This document shows, piece by piece, positions 2,089 to 9,329 of a stretch of DNA of 39,697 nt. Numbering within the stretch: position 1 is the first letter of the stretch; each line of letters opens with the position of its first letter. Source of the DNA: Rhodospirillales bacterium (GTDB taxonomy: Bacteria > Vulcanimicrobiota > Vulcanimicrobiia > Vulcanimicrobiales > Vulcanimicrobiaceae); the NCBI GenBank assembly GCA_025359485.1, contig JANYGA010000144.1, positions 1 through 39,697 on the forward strand, given 5' to 3'. The notes below the pieces were generated by a model. The model was given only the letters and a program-made list of their open reading frames with translations. It did not search any database and had not been told where the DNA came from. The translations under genes were made by a program, and so were the position numbers.

Positions 2089-3305
2089 CGGCGTTCGCGC
2101 CGAATCGCCGGGACCACCGCGATGATCGCGGCCATGAGCAGATAGCCCGTCCCGGCCACGATGATCGGGGTTCGGGCGCCGTAGCGATCGGCGAGGTAGC
2201 CGCCGATGAGGGCGCCGGGGACCGTGCCGATGAGGATGACCAAGCGCACCGCGCCGAACACGCGACCGACGAGCGCTTCTGGCGTCACACGCATTCGCCA
2301 GCCGACGATCTGCGCGATTTCGAACAGCACGCAGGCATTGGTGAGGGTCAAAAACGCAATCGCGACCGCGAGATCGTGCGTGAACATGACCGGCAAAAAC
2401 GCGATGGCGTCGACGAGATACGCGATCACGAGGACGCGTCCGAAGGGCCACGATCGCGGCACGCGTCCTGCGAGAAACGAGCCGATGACGGCACCGATCG
2501 CGGCGATGCCGAGCGCGTAACCGACGACCGCATCGCTCGCTCCGAAATCGCGTTTGAGAAACGGGATGAAGACCGCGCCCGCCATGATCGCAAACGTATT
2601 GAACGGGAGCGCGAGTGCGGAGAGGGCGCGCATCGCCGGATCGCTCCAGGCGAAGCGAAAGCCCGTCGCAATATCCGTTGCGATGACGCGGAGCGACGGA
2701 AGGCCGGGCGTTTCTTCGGGGCCGAGCGTTTCGATTGCGGCGAGCGAACCTTGCGAGACCAGGTACGTGACGGCGTTGATCGCGAGCGCGGGCAACGGGC
2801 CAACGAGTGCGAAGAGCGCACCGCCGATCGGCGGAATGACGGTCTGCGAAATCTGCTCGGCCGTGAGCAACGATGCGACGGCGGCCGTCGCGCGATCTTT
2901 CCCCACGAGATACGGAATCGCAGAAGCGGCGCCGCCGACGAAGATCGCGGCGGCTATCGAGAGCACGACGATGCCGACGTAGAGGAGCGGGATCGAAAGT
3001 GCGCCGCGCGCGTAGCCGATCGCGATGAGCACCATGACGGCGAATCGCGTCGCGTCGCAAGCGATCATCAGTCGACGACGATCGAGGCGGTCGGCGAGCG
3101 AACCGCCGATGAGTCCGAAGAGCGCGAACGGTCCGAGTTCGAGCGCGTAGGTAATGCCCGTGGAAAGTGCGGAGCCCGTCTGGTGAAAGACGAGCAACGG
3201 GATCGCGATGAGGCGCAAACCGTCGCCCACATATCCGAAGGCCTGCCCCGCATAAAACAGGGCAAAGCCTCGGTTTCGAAAGACGCTTTGCACGGGTGAC
3301 GCCAT
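2085..3305 (-). CDS. MFS transporter (EntS-like exporter family)
   Basis: A 406-residue major facilitator protein with about 12 hydrophobic segments, predicted to sit in the inner membrane and export small molecules. After the first helix pair it has the MFS loop motif GGSLADRLDRRR, and the matching GGYLADRYGAR loop appears in the second half. Overall it resembles the MFS_3/EntS type, with N-terminal FRNRGFALFYAGQAFGYVGDG. I chose the ATG at 3305 because it begins a normal MFS N-terminus; upstream codons are arginine-rich and would run into cysNC. It lies 44 bp downstream of cysNC on the same strand and may be co-transcribed, although nothing in the protein links it to sulfur. Substrate unknown. 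Confidence 0.85.
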   Translation of the reverse strand: MASPVQSVFRNRGFALFYAGQAFGYVGDGLRLIAIPLLVFHQTGSALSTGITYALELGPFALFGLIGGSLADRLDRRRLMIACDATRFAVMVLIAIGYARGALSIPLLYVGIVVLSIAAAIFVGGAASAIPYLVGKDRATAAVASLLTAEQISQTVIPPIGGALFALVGPLPALAINAVTYLVSQGSLAAIETLGPEETPGLPSLRVIATDIATGFRFAWSDPAMRALSALALPFNTFAIMAGAVFIPFLKRDFGASDAVVGYALGIAAIGAVIGSFLAGRVPRSWPFGRVLVIAYLVDAIAFLPVMFTHDLAVAIAFLTLTNACVLFEIAQIVGWRMRVTPEALVGRVFGAVRLVILIGTVPGALIGGYLADRYGARTPIIVAGTGYLLMAAIIAVVPAIRRERR

Positions 3306-3349
3306 TTCCGGGCGATGGCGAAAGTCTTTTCGGCGCTCCGCCGTCTTCG

Positions 3350-5188
3350 TTACACCGAGAGCGTGAGACTCACGCGTTCGCGGACGAACTGTTCGAGTCG
3401 ATCGACGGCGACGGCGAGATCGAGTTTTTCCGTATCGATCACGAGATCGGGTGACTCCGGGGTTTCGTACGTACCCGAGAGTCCGGTAAAGCCCGGGAGT
3501 TCGCCCGCGCGGGCTTTGCGATAATGGCCTTTGGGATCGCGTCGCTCGCATGCTGCCGCGCTCGCGCGGACGTACACTTCCGCAAAGCCATCGCCGACGA
3601 TCGCGCGGGCACGTTCGCGATCGCGGCGGCTCGGCGAAATGAACGCGGCGATCGCCACGCTTCCCGCATCGGCAAAGAGCGCGGCGACTTCGGCGACGCG
3701 CCGAATATTTTCGGCACGATCGGCGTCGGAGAATCCGAGATCGGCGCAGAGACCCGTGCGTAAATTATCGCCGTCGAGCACGTAGGTCGCGATGTTGCGT
3801 TCGAAGAGTCGTCGTTCGAGTTCCATCGCAATCGTCGATTTTCCAGCCCCGGGCAAACCCGTGAGCCACACGACGGCGCCGCGGTGGCCGTTACGCCGAA
3901 TGCGCGCGTCGACATCGACGAGATGCCCGACGGGCACGACGTTTTCGCCCGCGCGCGCGAGCGTCGCGAGGATCGTGCCGCCCGCGACGATATCGATGCC
4001 GTCGAGTAAGATAAAGCGTGCCAGTCCGGGCTGATCCCAGACGGTGTCGAGCGAAAGCGGCTCGCTGCTTTCGAGCACGATTTCGGCAACGTCGTTGGTT
4101 TGCGCGATGCGATGCGATTCTGTCGCGAGCGCTTCGATATCGACGACGCGTTCGAACGCTGCGACACGAACGACGGCCGTGCGCGTTCCGAAGCGCATCC
4201 GATACGTGTCGCCGACGGCGAGGGGTCGGGCACCGAGCCACAGCAAACGTGCGCGAAAGGACGTCGCGAGCGTCGGCGGGTGTGCGATATCACAAATGAT
4301 ATCGCCGCGATCGACGTAGAGCGGGCCATCGAGCGTGAAGCCGACGGATTCGCCCGCGCGTGCCGACGTGCGATCTTGCGGTGGCCACAGATCGAGTGAG
4401 AGGATGCGCGCGCGACGCATGGCGGGCGCGACGACGATGTCGTCGCCCGCGGCGAGCTCGCCCGATTCGATGCGACCGACGAGCGTGCGTTGTAAGCCGC
4501 GACGGATCACGCCTTGCACCGCGACGCGTAATCCCGATCGCGCGCGCGCCGCACGTGAGGGCAGGGCGAGCAAACTTGCGAAGATGGTCGGCCCCACGTA
4601 CCACGGCATCGCCGTCGAAACGTCGACGATATTCTCGCCGTTGCGCGCGGAGACGGGAACGAAGGCCGTTGCAGCGATGCCGATTCGACCGAGCAGCGCT
4701 TCGAGTTCGCTGCGAATGTCTTCGTAGCGCGCCTGCGCGTAAGCGACGCGATCCATCTTGTTGATCGCGACGACGACGCGATCGACGCCGATGAGTTCGA
4801 GCAAGAGCGCGTGACGTCGCGTCTGTTCGCTCACGCCGTCGTGCGCGTCGACGAGGAGCAGCGCGGCGTCGGCATCGGATGCGCCCGTGACCATGTTGCG
4901 TAAGAACTCTTTGTGACCGGGCGCATCGATGAGGACCACGTCGCGCTCGGGCGTGCGCATCCACAAACGCGTGGTATCGATCGTGACGGCGAGATCGCGT
5001 TCGCTCTGCATCGCATCGAGCACGAAGGACCATTCGAAGTCGACGCCGCGGCGGCCGGAGATGCCGCGAAGTTCCTCGACTTTGCCATCGGGAAGGTTGC
5101 CGCTATCGTGGAGCAATCGACCGATGAGCGTGGATTTGCCGTGATCGACGTGACCGACGGCGACGACGCGAAGTTGTTGTTGTTCCAT
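3350..5188 (-). CDS. cysNC: Bifunctional sulfate adenylyltransferase GTPase subunit / APS kinase
   Basis: The N-terminal part is the GTPase that drives APS formation by CysD; the C-terminal part is adenylylsulfate kinase, making PAPS. GTPase motifs are GHVDHGKST (12-20), DAPGH (88-92) and NKMD (143-146), followed by two beta-barrel domains to about 430. The switch region reads ERDLAVTIDTT, a variant of the common EREQGITIDV. The kinase has P-loop GLPGAGKS (444-451), DGDN (472-475), FISPSRRDRE (516-525) and DPKGHYRKA (551-559). The 612 residues fit the CysNC/NodQ fusion. Its ATG overlaps the cysD stop by one base (TAATG), giving translational coupling. It is the last gene of the attenuator-controlled operon. 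The PAPS-making half is noteworthy because the adjacent CysH looks APS-specific. Confidence 0.96.
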   Translation of the reverse strand: MEQQQLRVVAVGHVDHGKSTLIGRLLHDSGNLPDGKVEELRGISGRRGVDFEWSFVLDAMQSERDLAVTIDTTRLWMRTPERDVVLIDAPGHKEFLRNMVTGASDADAALLLVDAHDGVSEQTRRHALLLELIGVDRVVVAINKMDRVAYAQARYEDIRSELEALLGRIGIAATAFVPVSARNGENIVDVSTAMPWYVGPTIFASLLALPSRAARARSGLRVAVQGVIRRGLQRTLVGRIESGELAAGDDIVVAPAMRRARILSLDLWPPQDRTSARAGESVGFTLDGPLYVDRGDIICDIAHPPTLATSFRARLLWLGARPLAVGDTYRMRFGTRTAVVRVAAFERVVDIEALATESHRIAQTNDVAEIVLESSEPLSLDTVWDQPGLARFILLDGIDIVAGGTILATLARAGENVVPVGHLVDVDARIRRNGHRGAVVWLTGLPGAGKSTIAMELERRLFERNIATYVLDGDNLRTGLCADLGFSDADRAENIRRVAEVAALFADAGSVAIAAFISPSRRDRERARAIVGDGFAEVYVRASAAACERRDPKGHYRKARAGELPGFTGLSGTYETPESPDLVIDTEKLDLAVAVDRLEQFVRERVSLTLSV

Positions 5189-5982
5189 TACATGTACCCG
5201 CTCGTGCGCAGGCGTTCGAAGGCGTCTTCGCTTTCGTGATCCATCTTGCGACCCGCGCGTTCGGGCGCTTTGGTGGTCTCGAGTTCGGCGATAATTTCGG
5301 CGATCGAACTCGCATGTGATGCGATCGGCACGGTGATGTTTTTCTCACCGAGCGAGCGGTAGCGCATACCGTCGCGCGCGAGATAGAGCGGCACGATCGG
5401 AATATTTTCGCGCTCGGTGTAGCGCCAGATGTCGACTTCGGTCCAGTCGAGTAGCGGGTGGATGCGAAGGTGCTGGCCGTCGGGGATATCGGTGTGATAG
5501 ACGTCCCAGAGTTCGGCTGGTTGATGTTTGAGATCCCACGCACCCTCGACCGTGCGCGGTGAGAAAACGCGTTCTTTCGCGCGCATCGATTGCTCGTCGC
5601 GGCGGATACCGACGATGATGCCGCGATATTTTTTTTCCGTCACGAGCTCGCGCAGACCGACGGTTTTTCGCGCGGCGGCACGCGTTGCGGGCGGAAGCGT
5701 GGGATCCATCGCGGATTCCGGCGGGCAGAGCTGGTTGATGTAATCGAGATCCCACGCTTTGCTCAGCTCGTCGCGGAATTGATAGACTTCCGGTAATTCC
5801 ATCTCGGTATCGAGCAGCACGACCGGAAAGGGGACGCTACCGAGAAAGGCCTTACGTGCGAGCCAGAGCAGTGCGGTGCTGTCTTTTCCCATGGACCAGA
5901 GCATGCACAGGGGTTGGACGCGAAAATACGCTTCGCGCAAGATGGCGATCGAGCGTGCTTCGAGTTCGTCGAGGTGGTTCAC
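5188..5982 (-). CDS. cysD: Sulfate adenylyltransferase subunit 2
   Basis: The ATP-PPi-lyase half of ATP sulfurylase, which adenylates sulfate together with CysN. The protein begins VNHLDELEARSIAILREA and has the PP-loop SMGKDS at about residues 30-35. Later it has the conserved VGIRRDEQSMRAKERVFS and HPLLDWTEVDIWRY segments. At 264 residues it is somewhat shorter than the enterobacterial enzyme (about 300) but complete. I chose the GTG at 5982 because it matches the family N-terminus and forms a GTGA overlap with the cysH stop; the longer frame upstream is arginine-rich read-through of cysH. It is followed by cysNC with a one-base overlap. Cytoplasmic. Confidence 0.95.
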   Translation of the reverse strand: MNHLDELEARSIAILREAYFRVQPLCMLWSMGKDSTALLWLARKAFLGSVPFPVVLLDTEMELPEVYQFRDELSKAWDLDYINQLCPPESAMDPTLPPATRAAARKTVGLRELVTEKKYRGIIVGIRRDEQSMRAKERVFSPRTVEGAWDLKHQPAELWDVYHTDIPDGQHLRIHPLLDWTEVDIWRYTERENIPIVPLYLARDGMRYRSLGEKNITVPIASHASSIAEIIAELETTKAPERAGRKMDHESEDAFERLRTSGYM

Positions 5983-6674
5983 GATGTTCCGTTCGCGCCG
6001 AGCGCGGAGAAACTCGCGTGCAAGCCGCACTCGAGTTTGTCGGTACCGGACCAGCGGCCGGCGCGCGGATCTTCCCCGGGTGCGATCGCGCGCGTGCAAT
6101 GCGTGCATCCGAGCGACGGATAGCCGCGATCGTTGAGGGGATTATACGGCACGTCGTGCGCGAGGACGTAGCTCCAAATGTCGTTCGAGGTCCAATCGGC
6201 GAGCGGTGCGATCTTCGCAAGTCCGGTCGTGTCGTCACGTGAGAGGATGCCCACGTTCGTGCGCGACGCCGATTGATCGCGGCGGATGCCCGTGATCCAC
6301 GCATCGTAGTTCGCGAGAAATCTTTGCTGCGGTTCGACTTTGCGCAACGCGCAACACGCGTCGGAATTGCGTGCCCAAAGCGCTTCGCCGTAGCGCGCGT
6401 TTTGCCCGTCGACGGTAAGCTCTGGGCGCACCGCAATCGGTTCGATCCCGTAGCGTTCGCGCACGCGGTCGACGAGTGCGTAGGTTTCGTCGAAGAGCAA
6501 TCCCGTATCGAGGAAATAGACGGGCACCGAAGCATCGCGCTTTGCGATCATATCGAGCAACACCATACCCGATGGTCCGCCGAACGAACATGCGAGCGCG
6601 ATGTTGCCCGCGTACCGCGCGAGCGCTTCGTCGACGATCGTCTCCGCGCGTGCGATCGGTGATGTCTCGATCAT
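5979..6674 (-). CDS. cysH: Adenylylsulfate (APS) reductase, 4Fe-4S type
   Basis: Reduces adenylylsulfate to sulfite with thioredoxin, in the cytoplasm. The 231-residue protein has the PP-loop-related segment ACSFGGPSGMVLLD and two cysteine pairs that bind a 4Fe-4S cluster: C107-C108 (DACCALRKVEP) and C190/C193 (GCTHC). The catalytic cysteine is C216 in the C-terminal ECGLH motif. The paired cysteines mark the APS-reductase class rather than the cluster-free PAPS reductase of enterobacteria, although some clustered enzymes can also use PAPS. The ATG at 6674 overlaps the upstream permease stop in ATGA, and the end overlaps the cysD start in GTGA. No sulfite reductase gene is in the window. Confidence 0.95.
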   Translation of the reverse strand: MIETSPIARAETIVDEALARYAGNIALACSFGGPSGMVLLDMIAKRDASVPVYFLDTGLLFDETYALVDRVRERYGIEPIAVRPELTVDGQNARYGEALWARNSDACCALRKVEPQQRFLANYDAWITGIRRDQSASRTNVGILSRDDTTGLAKIAPLADWTSNDIWSYVLAHDVPYNPLNDRGYPSLGCTHCTRAIAPGEDPRAGRWSGTDKLECGLHASFSALGANGTS

Positions 6675-7459
6675 ACGAGTCGCGCTCCCGCGAAGGCGAG
6701 CGCGCCCACGACGATCGGTCGCAGCCAGCCGTCGCCGAGCGCGGTCGAAAGGCGGCTGCCGAGCCAGACGCCGGGCAGCGATCCCGCAAGCAACCCGAGC
6801 GCGAGGCGATAATCGACGTCGCCGAACGAGGCGTGCCCGAATGCGGCGATCGGTACGAGAAACGCGGCGAAGGCAATTTCGGAACCGATGAGGCGCCGGA
6901 GTGTGACGACGGGAACGGCGAAGGCAAGCAGCGGAAGCGTGATCGAGCCGCTTCCGATCGACGTTATGCTCACGAGAAAACCGACGATCGCGCCGATCGC
7001 GATGACGGTCGGAACGGGCGTCGTCGCTTCTGCCGTGGATGCCGCGATCAAGCGCGCGTTCGCGCGCGAGCGCACGATCCATGAGACGGTCGCGCCCGCA
7101 CACGCGAGCAGAATCGCGATGCCGATTGCGTGGCGGAGTGTCGACTGGAGCGCGACTTCGTTGACGTGCGTGCGCAAGATCGCGTAGGTCGCGAGGCCGG
7201 CGAGCGACCCCGGGATGCCGCCGCCGAGCAGCGCGCGGGTCACGACCCAATCGACGTTGCGACGCCGTGCGTGCAAGCCGAAGGCGAGCAGTTTCGTCGG
7301 GACGCTGTAGAGCAGATCGGTCCCAATCGCGAGGCTCGGCTTCACGCGCAAGACGAGGACGAGGAGCGGAATGAGGAGCGATCCGCCGCCGATCCCCGAG
7401 AGGCCGACGAACGTGCCGACGATGAGGCCGACGAGCGCGATTTGTGGATCGAGTAGCAT
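6671..7459 (-). CDS. TauE/SafE-family permease, first gene of the sulfur operon
   Basis: A 262-residue inner-membrane protein with about eight hydrophobic segments. Each half starts with a glycine-rich motif: FVGLSGIGGGSLLIPLL near the N-terminus and FLVSITSIGSGSITLPLL in the second half. This internal duplication is typical of the TauE/SafE (sulfite/sulfate/sulfoacetate permease) family. Members carry sulfur oxyanions or organosulfonates, in either direction. As the first gene of a cysH-cysD-cysNC operon it is a good candidate for sulfate uptake, and no ABC sulfate transporter is present here; export of excess sulfite is the alternative. It overlaps cysH by 4 bp (ATGA). Its ATG at 7459 lies 42 bases after the leader terminator stem and lacks a strong, well-spaced Shine-Dalgarno. 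Confidence 0.88.
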   Translation of the reverse strand: MLLDPQIALVGLIVGTFVGLSGIGGGSLLIPLLVLVLRVKPSLAIGTDLLYSVPTKLLAFGLHARRRNVDWVVTRALLGGGIPGSLAGLATYAILRTHVNEVALQSTLRHAIGIAILLACAGATVSWIVRSRANARLIAASTAEATTPVPTVIAIGAIVGFLVSITSIGSGSITLPLLAFAVPVVTLRRLIGSEIAFAAFLVPIAAFGHASFGDVDYRLALGLLAGSLPGVWLGSRLSTALGDGWLRPIVVGALAFAGARLV

Positions 7460-7500
7460 GAGGGTAGGGTGAAGGCTCCGTTATGAGTGGGTGTGCGGCG

Positions 7501-7535
7501 AAAAAAAGAAGCCCCCGCGCTCGGCGGGGGCTTCT
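7501..7535 (-). terminator. Intrinsic terminator in the cys operon leader (attenuator)
   Basis: On the minus strand a perfect 12-bp GC-rich stem (7535-7524 with 7518-7507) and a 5-base loop are followed by at least six more U residues (7506-7501). It lies between the cysteine-rich leader ORF and the first structural gene of the sulfate-assimilation operon. It therefore lies inside the transcription unit rather than after a gene on that strand. It is the expected terminator arm of a transcription attenuator. Confidence 0.88.
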
Positions 7536-7557
7536 CGGGGCGAACTCGTTTGGTCCG

Positions 7558-7635
7558 TCAGCCGATAAGCAATCCGCGCCGACCCGCGAACGGGCGACAG
7601 CAGAGACAGACGGGACAACAGGCGATGCGGAGCAT
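7558..7635 (-). CDS. Cysteine-rich leader peptide (predicted cys operon attenuator)
   Basis: A 25-codon ORF from ATG 7635 to TGA 7560-7558. The start region reads MLRIACCPVCLCC, with five cysteines at residues 6, 7, 10, 12 and 13 (codons TGT, TGT, TGT, TGC, TGT within 7620-7597). The rest is short and arginine/glycine-rich. A sigma70-type promoter ends 10 bases before the ATG, so the mRNA should be leaderless or nearly so; no Shine-Dalgarno is visible. Twenty-two bases after the stop a strong intrinsic terminator begins, then the tauE-cysH-cysD-cysNC operon. By analogy with amino-acid leader peptides and with the polycysteine upstream ORFs known in mycobacteria, low charged tRNA-Cys would stall the ribosome and allow read-through. 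The peptide itself probably has no other role. Confidence 0.75.
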   Translation of the reverse strand: MLRIACCPVCLCCRPFAGRRGLLIG

Positions 7636-7645
7636 TTCGAGCCGA

Positions 7646-7675
7646 ACCGTAACACGCGTTCCGCGGCCATGTCAA
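7646..7675 (-). promoter_or_regulatory. Promoter of the cys leader and operon
   Basis: Minus strand: a perfect -35 TTGACA (7675-7670), an 18-base spacer, and a -10 TACGGT (7651-7646) that keeps the most conserved T, A and final T. The predicted start is around 7639, only 3-4 bases before the leader-peptide ATG. Confidence 0.65.
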
Positions 7676-7740
7676 TTCGTTTCGACGGTCGGAGGCGGCG
7701 AAGAAGGTCAGCCCCGCTCGACGCCGCGGTCGTTGTCCGC

Positions 7741-7746
7741 TATACT
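7741..7746 (+). promoter_or_regulatory. -10 element of the tRNA-Asn promoter
   Basis: TATACT about 57 bases before the tRNA. The -35 region at about 7718-7723 is poor. It is the best promoter candidate between the divergent cys leader and the tRNA. Confidence 0.45.
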
Positions 7747-7802
7747 ACGGCGTCGGCAGGGTGCCTTAGCGCCTGCGCGAATTCGCGATGCGGCGATACC
7801 AA

Positions 7803-7878
7803 TCCCGAATAGCTCAGTTGGTAGAGCAGCTGACTGTTAATCAGCGGGTCTCTGGTTCGAGTCCAGATTCGGGAGCCA
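7803..7878 (+). tRNA. tRNA-Asn (GTT)
   Basis: A complete 76-base cloverleaf with encoded CCA. Acceptor arms TCCCGAA (7803-7809) and TTCGGGA (7868-7874) pair perfectly, with discriminator G and CCA at 7876-7878. The D arm contains AGCTCAGTTGGTAGAGCA. The anticodon arm GCTGA/TCAGC closes the loop CTGTTAA, giving anticodon GTT at 7836-7838, which reads Asn codons AAC/AAT. The T arm contains GGTTCGAGTCC. It is followed directly by a terminator hairpin, so it is a single-gene unit. Confidence 0.98.
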
Positions 7879-7883
7879 TATAC

Positions 7884-7918
7884 AAGCCCGTCAATGAACT
7901 CATTGGCGGGCTTTCTTT
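7884..7918 (+). terminator. Intrinsic terminator of tRNA-Asn
   Basis: Stem of 13 bp (7884-7896 with 7901-7913, one G-T wobble), a 4-base loop and a T-rich tail TTTCTTT. It sits 6 bases after the tRNA CCA. On the opposite strand the tail is not T-rich, so it probably works only for the tRNA. Confidence 0.88.
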
Positions 7919-7937
7919 CGTTCGTTAGCGCTGCAGC

Positions 7938-9329
7938 TTACACGACCGTCGCGCCTTCGGCTCCGATCGTAAATCGGTGCGTCGCGAGGTCTTGCGCCGT
8001 CCCGCGCGATTTTACGATGCGCACGGTGCGCGTCATCATCTCGTCCATCTCCATCGCGAGCAACACGATGTTGTCGGACATGTAACTAAAACGGCCACCC
8101 GCGGCGCCGATCGAACCGTCGGTGCCGTGCGTCGTTTCGAAGTTGAGCAAACTCGTGACGCCACTAATTGCGAAGTGTTGCACGAGCGCGTAGAGAAAAT
8201 CGTGTAATCGATCCTGATCGCTCGCCGCGCTCATCAAATCGCCTACGGCATCGATGACGATGCGCTTGACGTGTTCTTCGCGCACGCGGCGAAAGAGCGT
8301 CACGATGAGACTGTCGATCTGTAACTCGACGGGCGATGCGTACATCAGCTTGAAGCCGCGCGAGGCCGCTTGGGCGGGATCGACGCCCATCGCGCGCAGC
8401 GTCGTCGCAAGCTGCGTCGGATTCTCTTGGAAGTTGACGTAGAGCGCGGCCTCGCCGTCTTCGAGCGCCTGTAACGCGAAGCGCAACGCCATCGTCGTCT
8501 TCCCGGCACCACTTGGCCCCGCGAGCAGCGTCGTCCGCCCGCGCAAGAGCCCGCCGCCGATCAACGCATCCAAACCGACGATACCCGAGGGGATGCGTTC
8601 CATGTCCATCTCGTAGCCTTCCGGCACCTCAGGTGTGACGAGGCGTGGGAAAACGTCGAGCCCGTCGCGCGTAATGCGGAAGCTGTGCATGCCCTCGAAA
8701 TAGCCGCTGCCACGCAACTTCACGACGCGTAAGAAACGTTCGTCACGCGTGCTCTTCTCGCTGCGCAAAAGTTGGATGATGCCGTCGGCAACCGCGAACT
8801 CAGGCAGCGCCTTCGCGTCTTCATCGCTATATTCGCCGACGAGAAAGACCGTCGTCGCGTACGCCGTGAGCAGGCCCGTGAGTTCGTAGAGCATCCTGCG
8901 CATCGCGGCGACCGATGGCGAGATATCGTGGAGCGCCTTGTACGAATCGATGATGATGATCTTCGGCGAAAATGCGTGGATCGCATCCGACACGACGTCG
9001 ACGAGCGCTTCGATTCCTTCGTGAGCGAGACGGGCGCCGACGTCGTCGTAGATCACGGCCGTTCCGACGCTCGCTTCATCGTAGAACGTGAATCGCTGCA
9101 AGTACTTAAGGACCTTTGCAACGGGTTCGGAAAACGTCGTGAGATAGAGGATCGGGCGTGCGTCGTCGGCGTTATGGAACGCCATTTGTTCGGCGAAGAC
9201 CGTCTTACCCGACCCCGGTTGACCCATGATAATATTGATCGAGTTCACCGGGAAGCCGCCGCCGAGGATCGCGTCGATCTCCGCAGATCCGGTCGTAACG
9301 CGCTCGTCCGTTTCGATGAATTCGATCAA
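7938..9329 (-). CDS. KaiC-like double-domain RecA-superfamily ATPase
   Basis: A 463-residue protein of two tandem KaiC domains. Domain 1 has Walker A GQPGSGKT (36-43) and a hydrophobic Walker B KIIIIDSYKAL (123-133). Domain 2 has GPSGAGKT (271-278) and KRIVIDAVGDL (355-365). The paired catalytic glutamates of clock KaiC are replaced by SE (LTTFSEP) and QE (VNFQENP). I see no clear equivalent of the clock phosphorylation sites, so a circadian role is not supported. KaiC-like ATPases outside cyanobacteria are usually signalling hubs. The start TTG at 9329 overlaps the receiver stop (TTGA) and has a GGAG at 9338-9341, eight bases upstream. It is the last gene of a three-gene overlapping signalling cassette and probably receives input from it. 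Confidence 0.88.
   Translation of the reverse strand: MIEFIETDERVTTGSAEIDAILGGGFPVNSINIIMGQPGSGKTVFAEQMAFHNADDARPILYLTTFSEPVAKVLKYLQRFTFYDEASVGTAVIYDDVGARLAHEGIEALVDVVSDAIHAFSPKIIIIDSYKALHDISPSVAAMRRMLYELTGLLTAYATTVFLVGEYSDEDAKALPEFAVADGIIQLLRSEKSTRDERFLRVVKLRGSGYFEGMHSFRITRDGLDVFPRLVTPEVPEGYEMDMERIPSGIVGLDALIGGGLLRGRTTLLAGPSGAGKTTMALRFALQALEDGEAALYVNFQENPTQLATTLRAMGVDPAQAASRGFKLMYASPVELQIDSLIVTLFRRVREEHVKRIVIDAVGDLMSAASDQDRLHDFLYALVQHFAISGVTSLLNFETTHGTDGSIGAAGGRFSYMSDNIVLLAMEMDEMMTRTVRIVKSRGTAQDLATHRFTIGAEGATVV

Follow-up and report, generated by a model that had tools for sequence, protein, structure and literature searches.

Leaderless polycysteine sORFs of mycobacteria were reportedly described by Canestrari et al. 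in 2020. As cited in two later papers, such sORFs are cysteine-responsive and lie at the 5' end of the mRNAs of cysteine-biosynthesis operons (PMC13236596, PMC9094748). Cys leader peptides have also been predicted upstream of cys operons in Actinobacteria (PMC1262725), and in the Rhodobacterales the uORFC-8-2 motif, a uORF with Cys codons and an intrinsic terminator, is predicted before cysS (PMC8632094). In Streptomyces lividans, leaderless Leu, Trp and Ilv leaders are accompanied by terminators (PMC8079986).

We analyzed a stretch of 39,697 nucleotides (contig JANYGA010000144.1, hereafter the window) from a genome whose family appears to be that of the cultured Vulcanimicrobium alpinum, in the phylum Eremiobacterota, where strain WC8-2 has been placed (PMC9758169). 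On the minus strand of the window, a Cys-rich leader precedes a tauE-cysH-cysD-cysNC operon. It resembles uORFC-8-2 in having a Cys uORF followed by an intrinsic terminator, for which stalling on uncharged tRNA-Cys is predicted to give read-through (PMC8632094). Like the mycobacterial sORFs, it has a short ORF rich in Cys where the mRNA of a cysteine operon begins, and with the trp/his/leu-type attenuators and those of S. lividans, leaderless in Streptomyces, it shares end-product codons, a terminator and an alternative pairing. From its sequence and that of its relatives, we consider it very likely that the leader acts as a ribosome-mediated transcription attenuator sensing charged tRNA-Cys, and very probably the cysteine-producing enzymes would be made only when cysteine is short.

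Leader region and operon in the window

The elements of the leader region and the operon that follows are, in the direction of transcription:

7670..7675, minus strand: -35 element TTGACA, read in the sequence; TTGAC- or similar occurs at equal spacing in relatives
7646..7651, minus strand: -10 element TACGGT, from the sequence and from the leaders of relatives
7558..7635, minus strand: leader ORF of 25 codons, MLRIACCPVCLCCRPFAGRRGLLIG, ATG at 7635, read in the sequence; counterparts in 15 genomes
7597..7620, minus strand: control region read in the sequence, Cys codons 6, 7, 10, 12 and 13 (TGT TGT TGT TGC TGT), which doubles as RNA segment 1
7563..7585, minus strand: RNA segment 2, the antiterminator strand, including TCGGCG at 7582-7577
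7524..7536, minus strand: terminator 5' arm, RNA segment 3, with either segment 2 or segment 4 as partner
7506..7518, minus strand: terminator 3' arm, RNA segment 4
7501..7509, minus strand: U tract of the intrinsic terminator, overlapping the foot of the 3' arm
6671..7459, minus strand: TauE/SafE-family permease (PF01925, domain match), first gene of the operon
5979..6680, minus strand: cysH, (P)APS reductase, whose invariant cysteines (CC and CxxC) match those of iron-sulfur APS reductases
5188..6108, minus strand: cysD, sulfate adenylyltransferase subunit 2, listed from the start of the longest ORF
3350..5188, minus strand: cysNC, sulfate adenylyltransferase subunit 1 fused to APS kinase

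An earlier note on this DNA had described a TTGACA-N18-TACGGT promoter, a 25-codon ORF with five Cys codons at residues 6-13, and a terminator with a U run followed by tauE-cysH-cysD-cysNC. The promoter, with its 18-nt spacer, and the ORF are found as described, and folding and family matches bear out the terminator and the gene order, with cysD homology starting ~37 residues into the longest ORF. The leader promoter is missing from the list given by a generic promoter scan of the window; its assignment rests on conservation in relatives. A divergent tRNA-Asn gene is located at 7803-7878.

The Cys content of the ORF is far above the background of the window: given a gene-wide Cys frequency of 0.67%, the probability of at least five Cys in 24 codons is 5e-7. 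The peptide has no match in Pfam or NCBIfam and the leader none in Rfam, a covariance-model scan of the window at the gathering score returning tRNA only. NF042934, an NCBIfam family of cis_reg_atten leader peptides, was considered and ruled out as the family of the leader: none of 61 family genomes scores above the curated cut-off of 27 bits, and the window peptide is without a match.

The terminator stem (7536-7506) has a folding energy of -26.2 kcal/mol (z = -5.3), none of 200 shuffles folding equally well, and ranks strongest of the 9 terminator-like sites within 3000-8200. The GC stem reported earlier has 13 pairs, weak outer pairs included, rather than 12 bp. Segment 2 starts 12-14 nt past the last Cys codon and spans leader nt 50-72, TCGGCG corresponding to nt 53-58. 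In the folding of terminator against antiterminator, a check suggested in the earlier note, the complete, ribosome-free leader is predicted to fold with the terminator and a 1:2 pairing, and the 2:3 pairing forms once segment 1 is masked. Taken singly, the window antiterminator is no better than chance (p=0.20), and the 1:2 pairing is not above shuffles in this leader; support for the antiterminator is therefore comparative and comes from the set of leaders presented below.

Only 10 nt separate the -10 hexamer from the ATG in the window, leaving no room for a Shine-Dalgarno site, and the distance to the leader start codon is 7-10 nt in relatives, which places the predicted transcript start at the AUG or within a few nt of it. 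The leader mRNA is thus probably leaderless or near-leaderless, a point on which the earlier note made no remark and which is added here. The genome of the window contains 19 sites with the pattern TTGAC-N17-20-TANNNT-N6-11-ATG, versus 1 for the reversed pattern, and many of these sites open long ORFs, so leaderless genes are probably common in this genome. Two of the 19 sites precede long ORFs that resemble SufC and SufB (L055 and L063, from translations only).

Distribution, specificity and geometry of the leaders

CysH was searched in 149 genomes of the phylum and sulfite reductase in 99 genomes of the family, and the upstream DNA was then inspected. This yielded 22 Cys or Cys/Met leaders with a terminator, distributed over nine genera and 15 genomes, and every one stands before genes of sulfur metabolism; coming from one bacterial family, these leaders are related by descent and are not independent samples. 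They precede cysH operons in G000 (the window's genome), G007, G013, G018, G028, G102, G112, G119 and G124, and sulfite reductase in G000, G005 (two copies), G007, G018, G028, G103, G121, G122, G125 and G126. One leader of G018 is found before FMN reductase/sulfonate transport genes and one of G112 before homoserine dehydrogenase and an O-acetylhomoserine sulfhydrylase-like gene, the last two being named from their translations. The second module of the window's genome consists of MIYRCCRYACGTCAFAAHGRVVI and a terminator before sulfite reductase. V. alpinum WC8-2, which we infer to be genome G007, also has two modules, MISLAVRACASCLRIDPDTA before cysH, with two Cys codons only, and MLLCCCLLMACPASVARRSASS before sulfite reductase. 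The leader peptides share little except Cys (e.g. MLCPCCCPAPDFACCRMATGRGVALD, MQYVLCCCPCRCFGDSVGPA and MLHRRKGRGMCCCVSSFCKGAEVIAT); despite this divergence, the Cys codons, the terminator and the geometry are retained. Comparison of related leaders, also suggested earlier, finds in-frame Cys codons and terminator maintained, and the other predictions that the note made at the level of sequence are likewise borne out.

The module is present in all 13 family genomes that carry both cysH and sulfite reductase. It is found in none of the 7 genomes with cysH but without sulfite reductase, as inspected over 500 nt before cysH, the contig starting near cysH in two of them (G025 and G114). At the sulfite-reductase locus of G102 (L105, G102:C138), the promoter is conserved with its relative L104 and the leader and terminator are deleted, so that attenuation control would be dispensable there; from its sequence, L105 appears to be a natural loss of attenuation. 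The expectation that related operons keep a Cys leader holds with these exceptions, the cysH operons of genomes without sulfite reductase and the decayed G102 locus.

We then assessed specificity with a strict detector requiring a start codon 6-11 nt downstream of a -10 box, an ORF of 12-40 codons, at least 3 Cys in 12 codons and a terminator. In 397 kb of family DNA it gave 21 matches, each immediately upstream of a cysH or sulfite-reductase operon and together corresponding to 15 distinct loci, the remainder being repeats from overlapping stretches. Over 324 kb, 10 matches were obtained, whereas neither the six dinucleotide shuffles nor the reversed DNA gave any. In an outgroup of at least 80 cysH loci of other phyla (561 kb), the loci listed include one weak match, in Oerskovia, and a Chloroflexota MAG adds one clear module when the limit on loop length is relaxed. 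This Anaerolineae contig carries the Cys leader MLNLSVTKYNKITLANSCMCMCCCLCLPAPWWGTSL upstream of cysH (L148:2690-2930), with the -10 box 7 nt before the leader and a terminator of -20.5 kcal/mol; given this equal layout, the module is not confined to the family of the window. Two other searches were abandoned: a DNA pattern containing a Cys pair and applied to the whole phylum, dominated by AT-rich families and with control counts close to the real ones, and an early Cys-ORF filter, whose antisense and coding-frame artefacts were removed once promoter and terminator were demanded.

The geometry was examined on 23 leaders, the 22 Cys or Cys/Met leaders and a leuA leader. The terminator 5' arm starts 87-118 nt after the AUG in all 23, mostly at 97-108. 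The best duplex between leader and terminator arm starts at nt 44-62 in 20 of the 23 (mean 5.7 and maximum 12 in shuffles), and TCGGCG at 7582-7577, named earlier as the antiterminator, sits where it begins. If a ribosome stalled at the Cys codons, its predicted end would lie directly before this segment. The middle of a MAFFT alignment of the leaders being too gappy for counting covariation, we compared cognate with non-cognate duplex energies instead; cognate leader/arm duplexes are stronger (p=0.001, 18 non-redundant leaders). The 1:2 pairing is seen in 20/23 ribosome-free folds, above shuffles for the set as a whole. The terminator does not form in the complete ribosome-free fold of two leaders, G000_sir and G013_cysH. 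Codon use is also distinctive: Cys is encoded by 55 TGT and 19 TGC in the leaders versus 16 TGT and 74 TGC in a sample of genes of the window and its relatives (p=2e-13), a bias that would fit selection of a codon that is read slowly.

Leaders of similar layout occur for other amino acids. In the window's own genome, a leaderless-type leader MNGPTIFSDLLLSGTPQA with a terminator stands on the minus strand before leuA (G000:C208:4845-4885, L064) and is a probable Leu attenuator of equal design. In G112, the leader MDEYSLLVASRHHHHHGPPGPCCE, with a terminator, lies before an aminotransferase-like gene (L044:6478, plus strand) and is probably a his operon attenuator. Met and Cys codons are mixed in the sulfite-reductase leaders L041, L047, L109, L113, L118, L119 and L120, a composition that suggests two-input sensing of both sulfur amino acids. 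We lean slightly towards a general picture in which this family would control its sulfur genes as a regulon, and probably also the synthesis of Leu and His, through attenuators on leaderless mRNAs, with 70S ribosomes having to load on the emerging 5' AUG, and in which the sulfite-reductase and homoserine-dehydrogenase leaders (e.g. MLLCCCLLMACP.., MFSAHAIMMMCCISP.., MSSHATTMMYPHCCMHM..) would be two-input sensors of methionyl- and cysteinyl-tRNA.

Proposed mechanism and alternative explanations

The layout is that of a classical attenuator: end-product codons are clustered in a short ORF before biosynthetic genes, an intrinsic terminator lies between, and a 2:3 pairing exclusive with the terminator is found 3' of the control codons in the 23-leader set. 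The sequences show the parts themselves, their conservation in place and frame, the codon bias and the cognate 2:3 complementarity. We infer a leaderless start, stalling, read-through and a response to cysteine as follows. Transcription would begin at or near the AUG of the Cys-rich 25-codon leader, and a ribosome would initiate directly on the leaderless or near-leaderless 5' end. With ample Cys-tRNA, it would reach the stop codon and cover or release segment 2, the 3:4 terminator would form and the transcript would end after ~130 nt. If Cys-tRNA ran short, the ribosome would stall on the Cys codons (7620-7597) and leave segment 2 (7585-7563) free just ahead; segment 2 would then pair with the emerging terminator 5' arm (7536-7524), allowing read-through into tauE-cysH-cysD-cysNC.

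Cys stalling could instead alter access to a downstream start site, as in translational attenuation of the mycobacterial type, the hairpin then having no transcriptional part. PMC13236596 cites the mycobacterial leaderless polycysteine sORFs as cases of translation attenuation, and the start codons of the window-family leaders likewise appear leaderless. We nevertheless regard this explanation as unlikely, since a GC hairpin with a U tract follows every leader of the family at a near-constant distance and the best duplex of leader and terminator arm lies at a fixed place; in the actinobacterial Cys leaders recovered by the same search, the Cys codons adjoin the stop codon and no terminator was found.

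Small proteins with short transcripts exist, and the CC and CxC pairs of the ORF could bind metal. The ORF might thus encode a functional Cys-rich small protein, involved in metal or redox binding, with a terminator that merely ends its own transcript. This seems highly improbable: the peptides diverge except for their Cys (and Met) content and match nothing in Pfam or NCBIfam, the leaders of some operons are down to 2-3 Cys, and the TGT bias and antiterminator geometry are features of the RNA level. Least probable of all is a riboswitch or T-box-like element in which cysteine or a sulfur metabolite acts on the hairpin directly and the ORF is incidental; S-box and T-box elements do control sulfur genes in Firmicutes, but the leader matches no Rfam family, its sole conserved sequence content is in-frame Cys/Met codons, and an equal design is found with Leu or His codons before leuA and the putative his operon.

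Comparison with known systems

The earlier note knew of no such control in this lineage, and indeed we found no description of a leader peptide in Eremiobacterota in the open-access literature; the kind of control itself has precedents (PMC8632094, PMC1262725). In the open-access literature searched, no classical attenuator that has an intrinsic terminator is shown to govern sulfate assimilation; the nearest case with such a terminator stands before cysS (PMC8632094).

The mycobacterial sORFs are described as acting by translation attenuation, with a Cys run that adjoins the stop codon and without an intrinsic terminator (PMC1262725), whereas the window family has one. The actinobacterial Cys leaders have no conserved terminator, and Rho-dependent termination has been suggested for them (PMC1262725). 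In five actinobacterial leaders that we inspected (L143:1166, L145:1175, L159:1340, L194:1521 and L196:1533), the Cys run adjoins the stop codon; a search behind these five gave no intrinsic terminator, a looser scan giving a weak hairpin for L145. The uORFC-8-2 motif has two tandem Cys codons at positions 14-15 and stands before a tRNA synthetase gene in Alphaproteobacteria (PMC8632094), whereas the window family has as many as six Cys codons, or a mix of Met and Cys, stands before sulfate/sulfite reduction operons and places the AUG 7-10 nt from the -10 box. From the trp/his/leu-type attenuators and those of S. lividans it differs in lineage and in the amino acid that would be sensed, either Cys or both Met and Cys.

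The system unites known features for sulfate/sulfite assimilation in a different phylum and also includes Met/Cys leaders, which would sense two inputs where the use of sulfide branches. Should the transcripts be leaderless, they raise the question of how transcription-translation coupling persists when ribosomes load only on a bare 5' end. Overall, the comparison supports a complete attenuator device in a deep, little-studied lineage.
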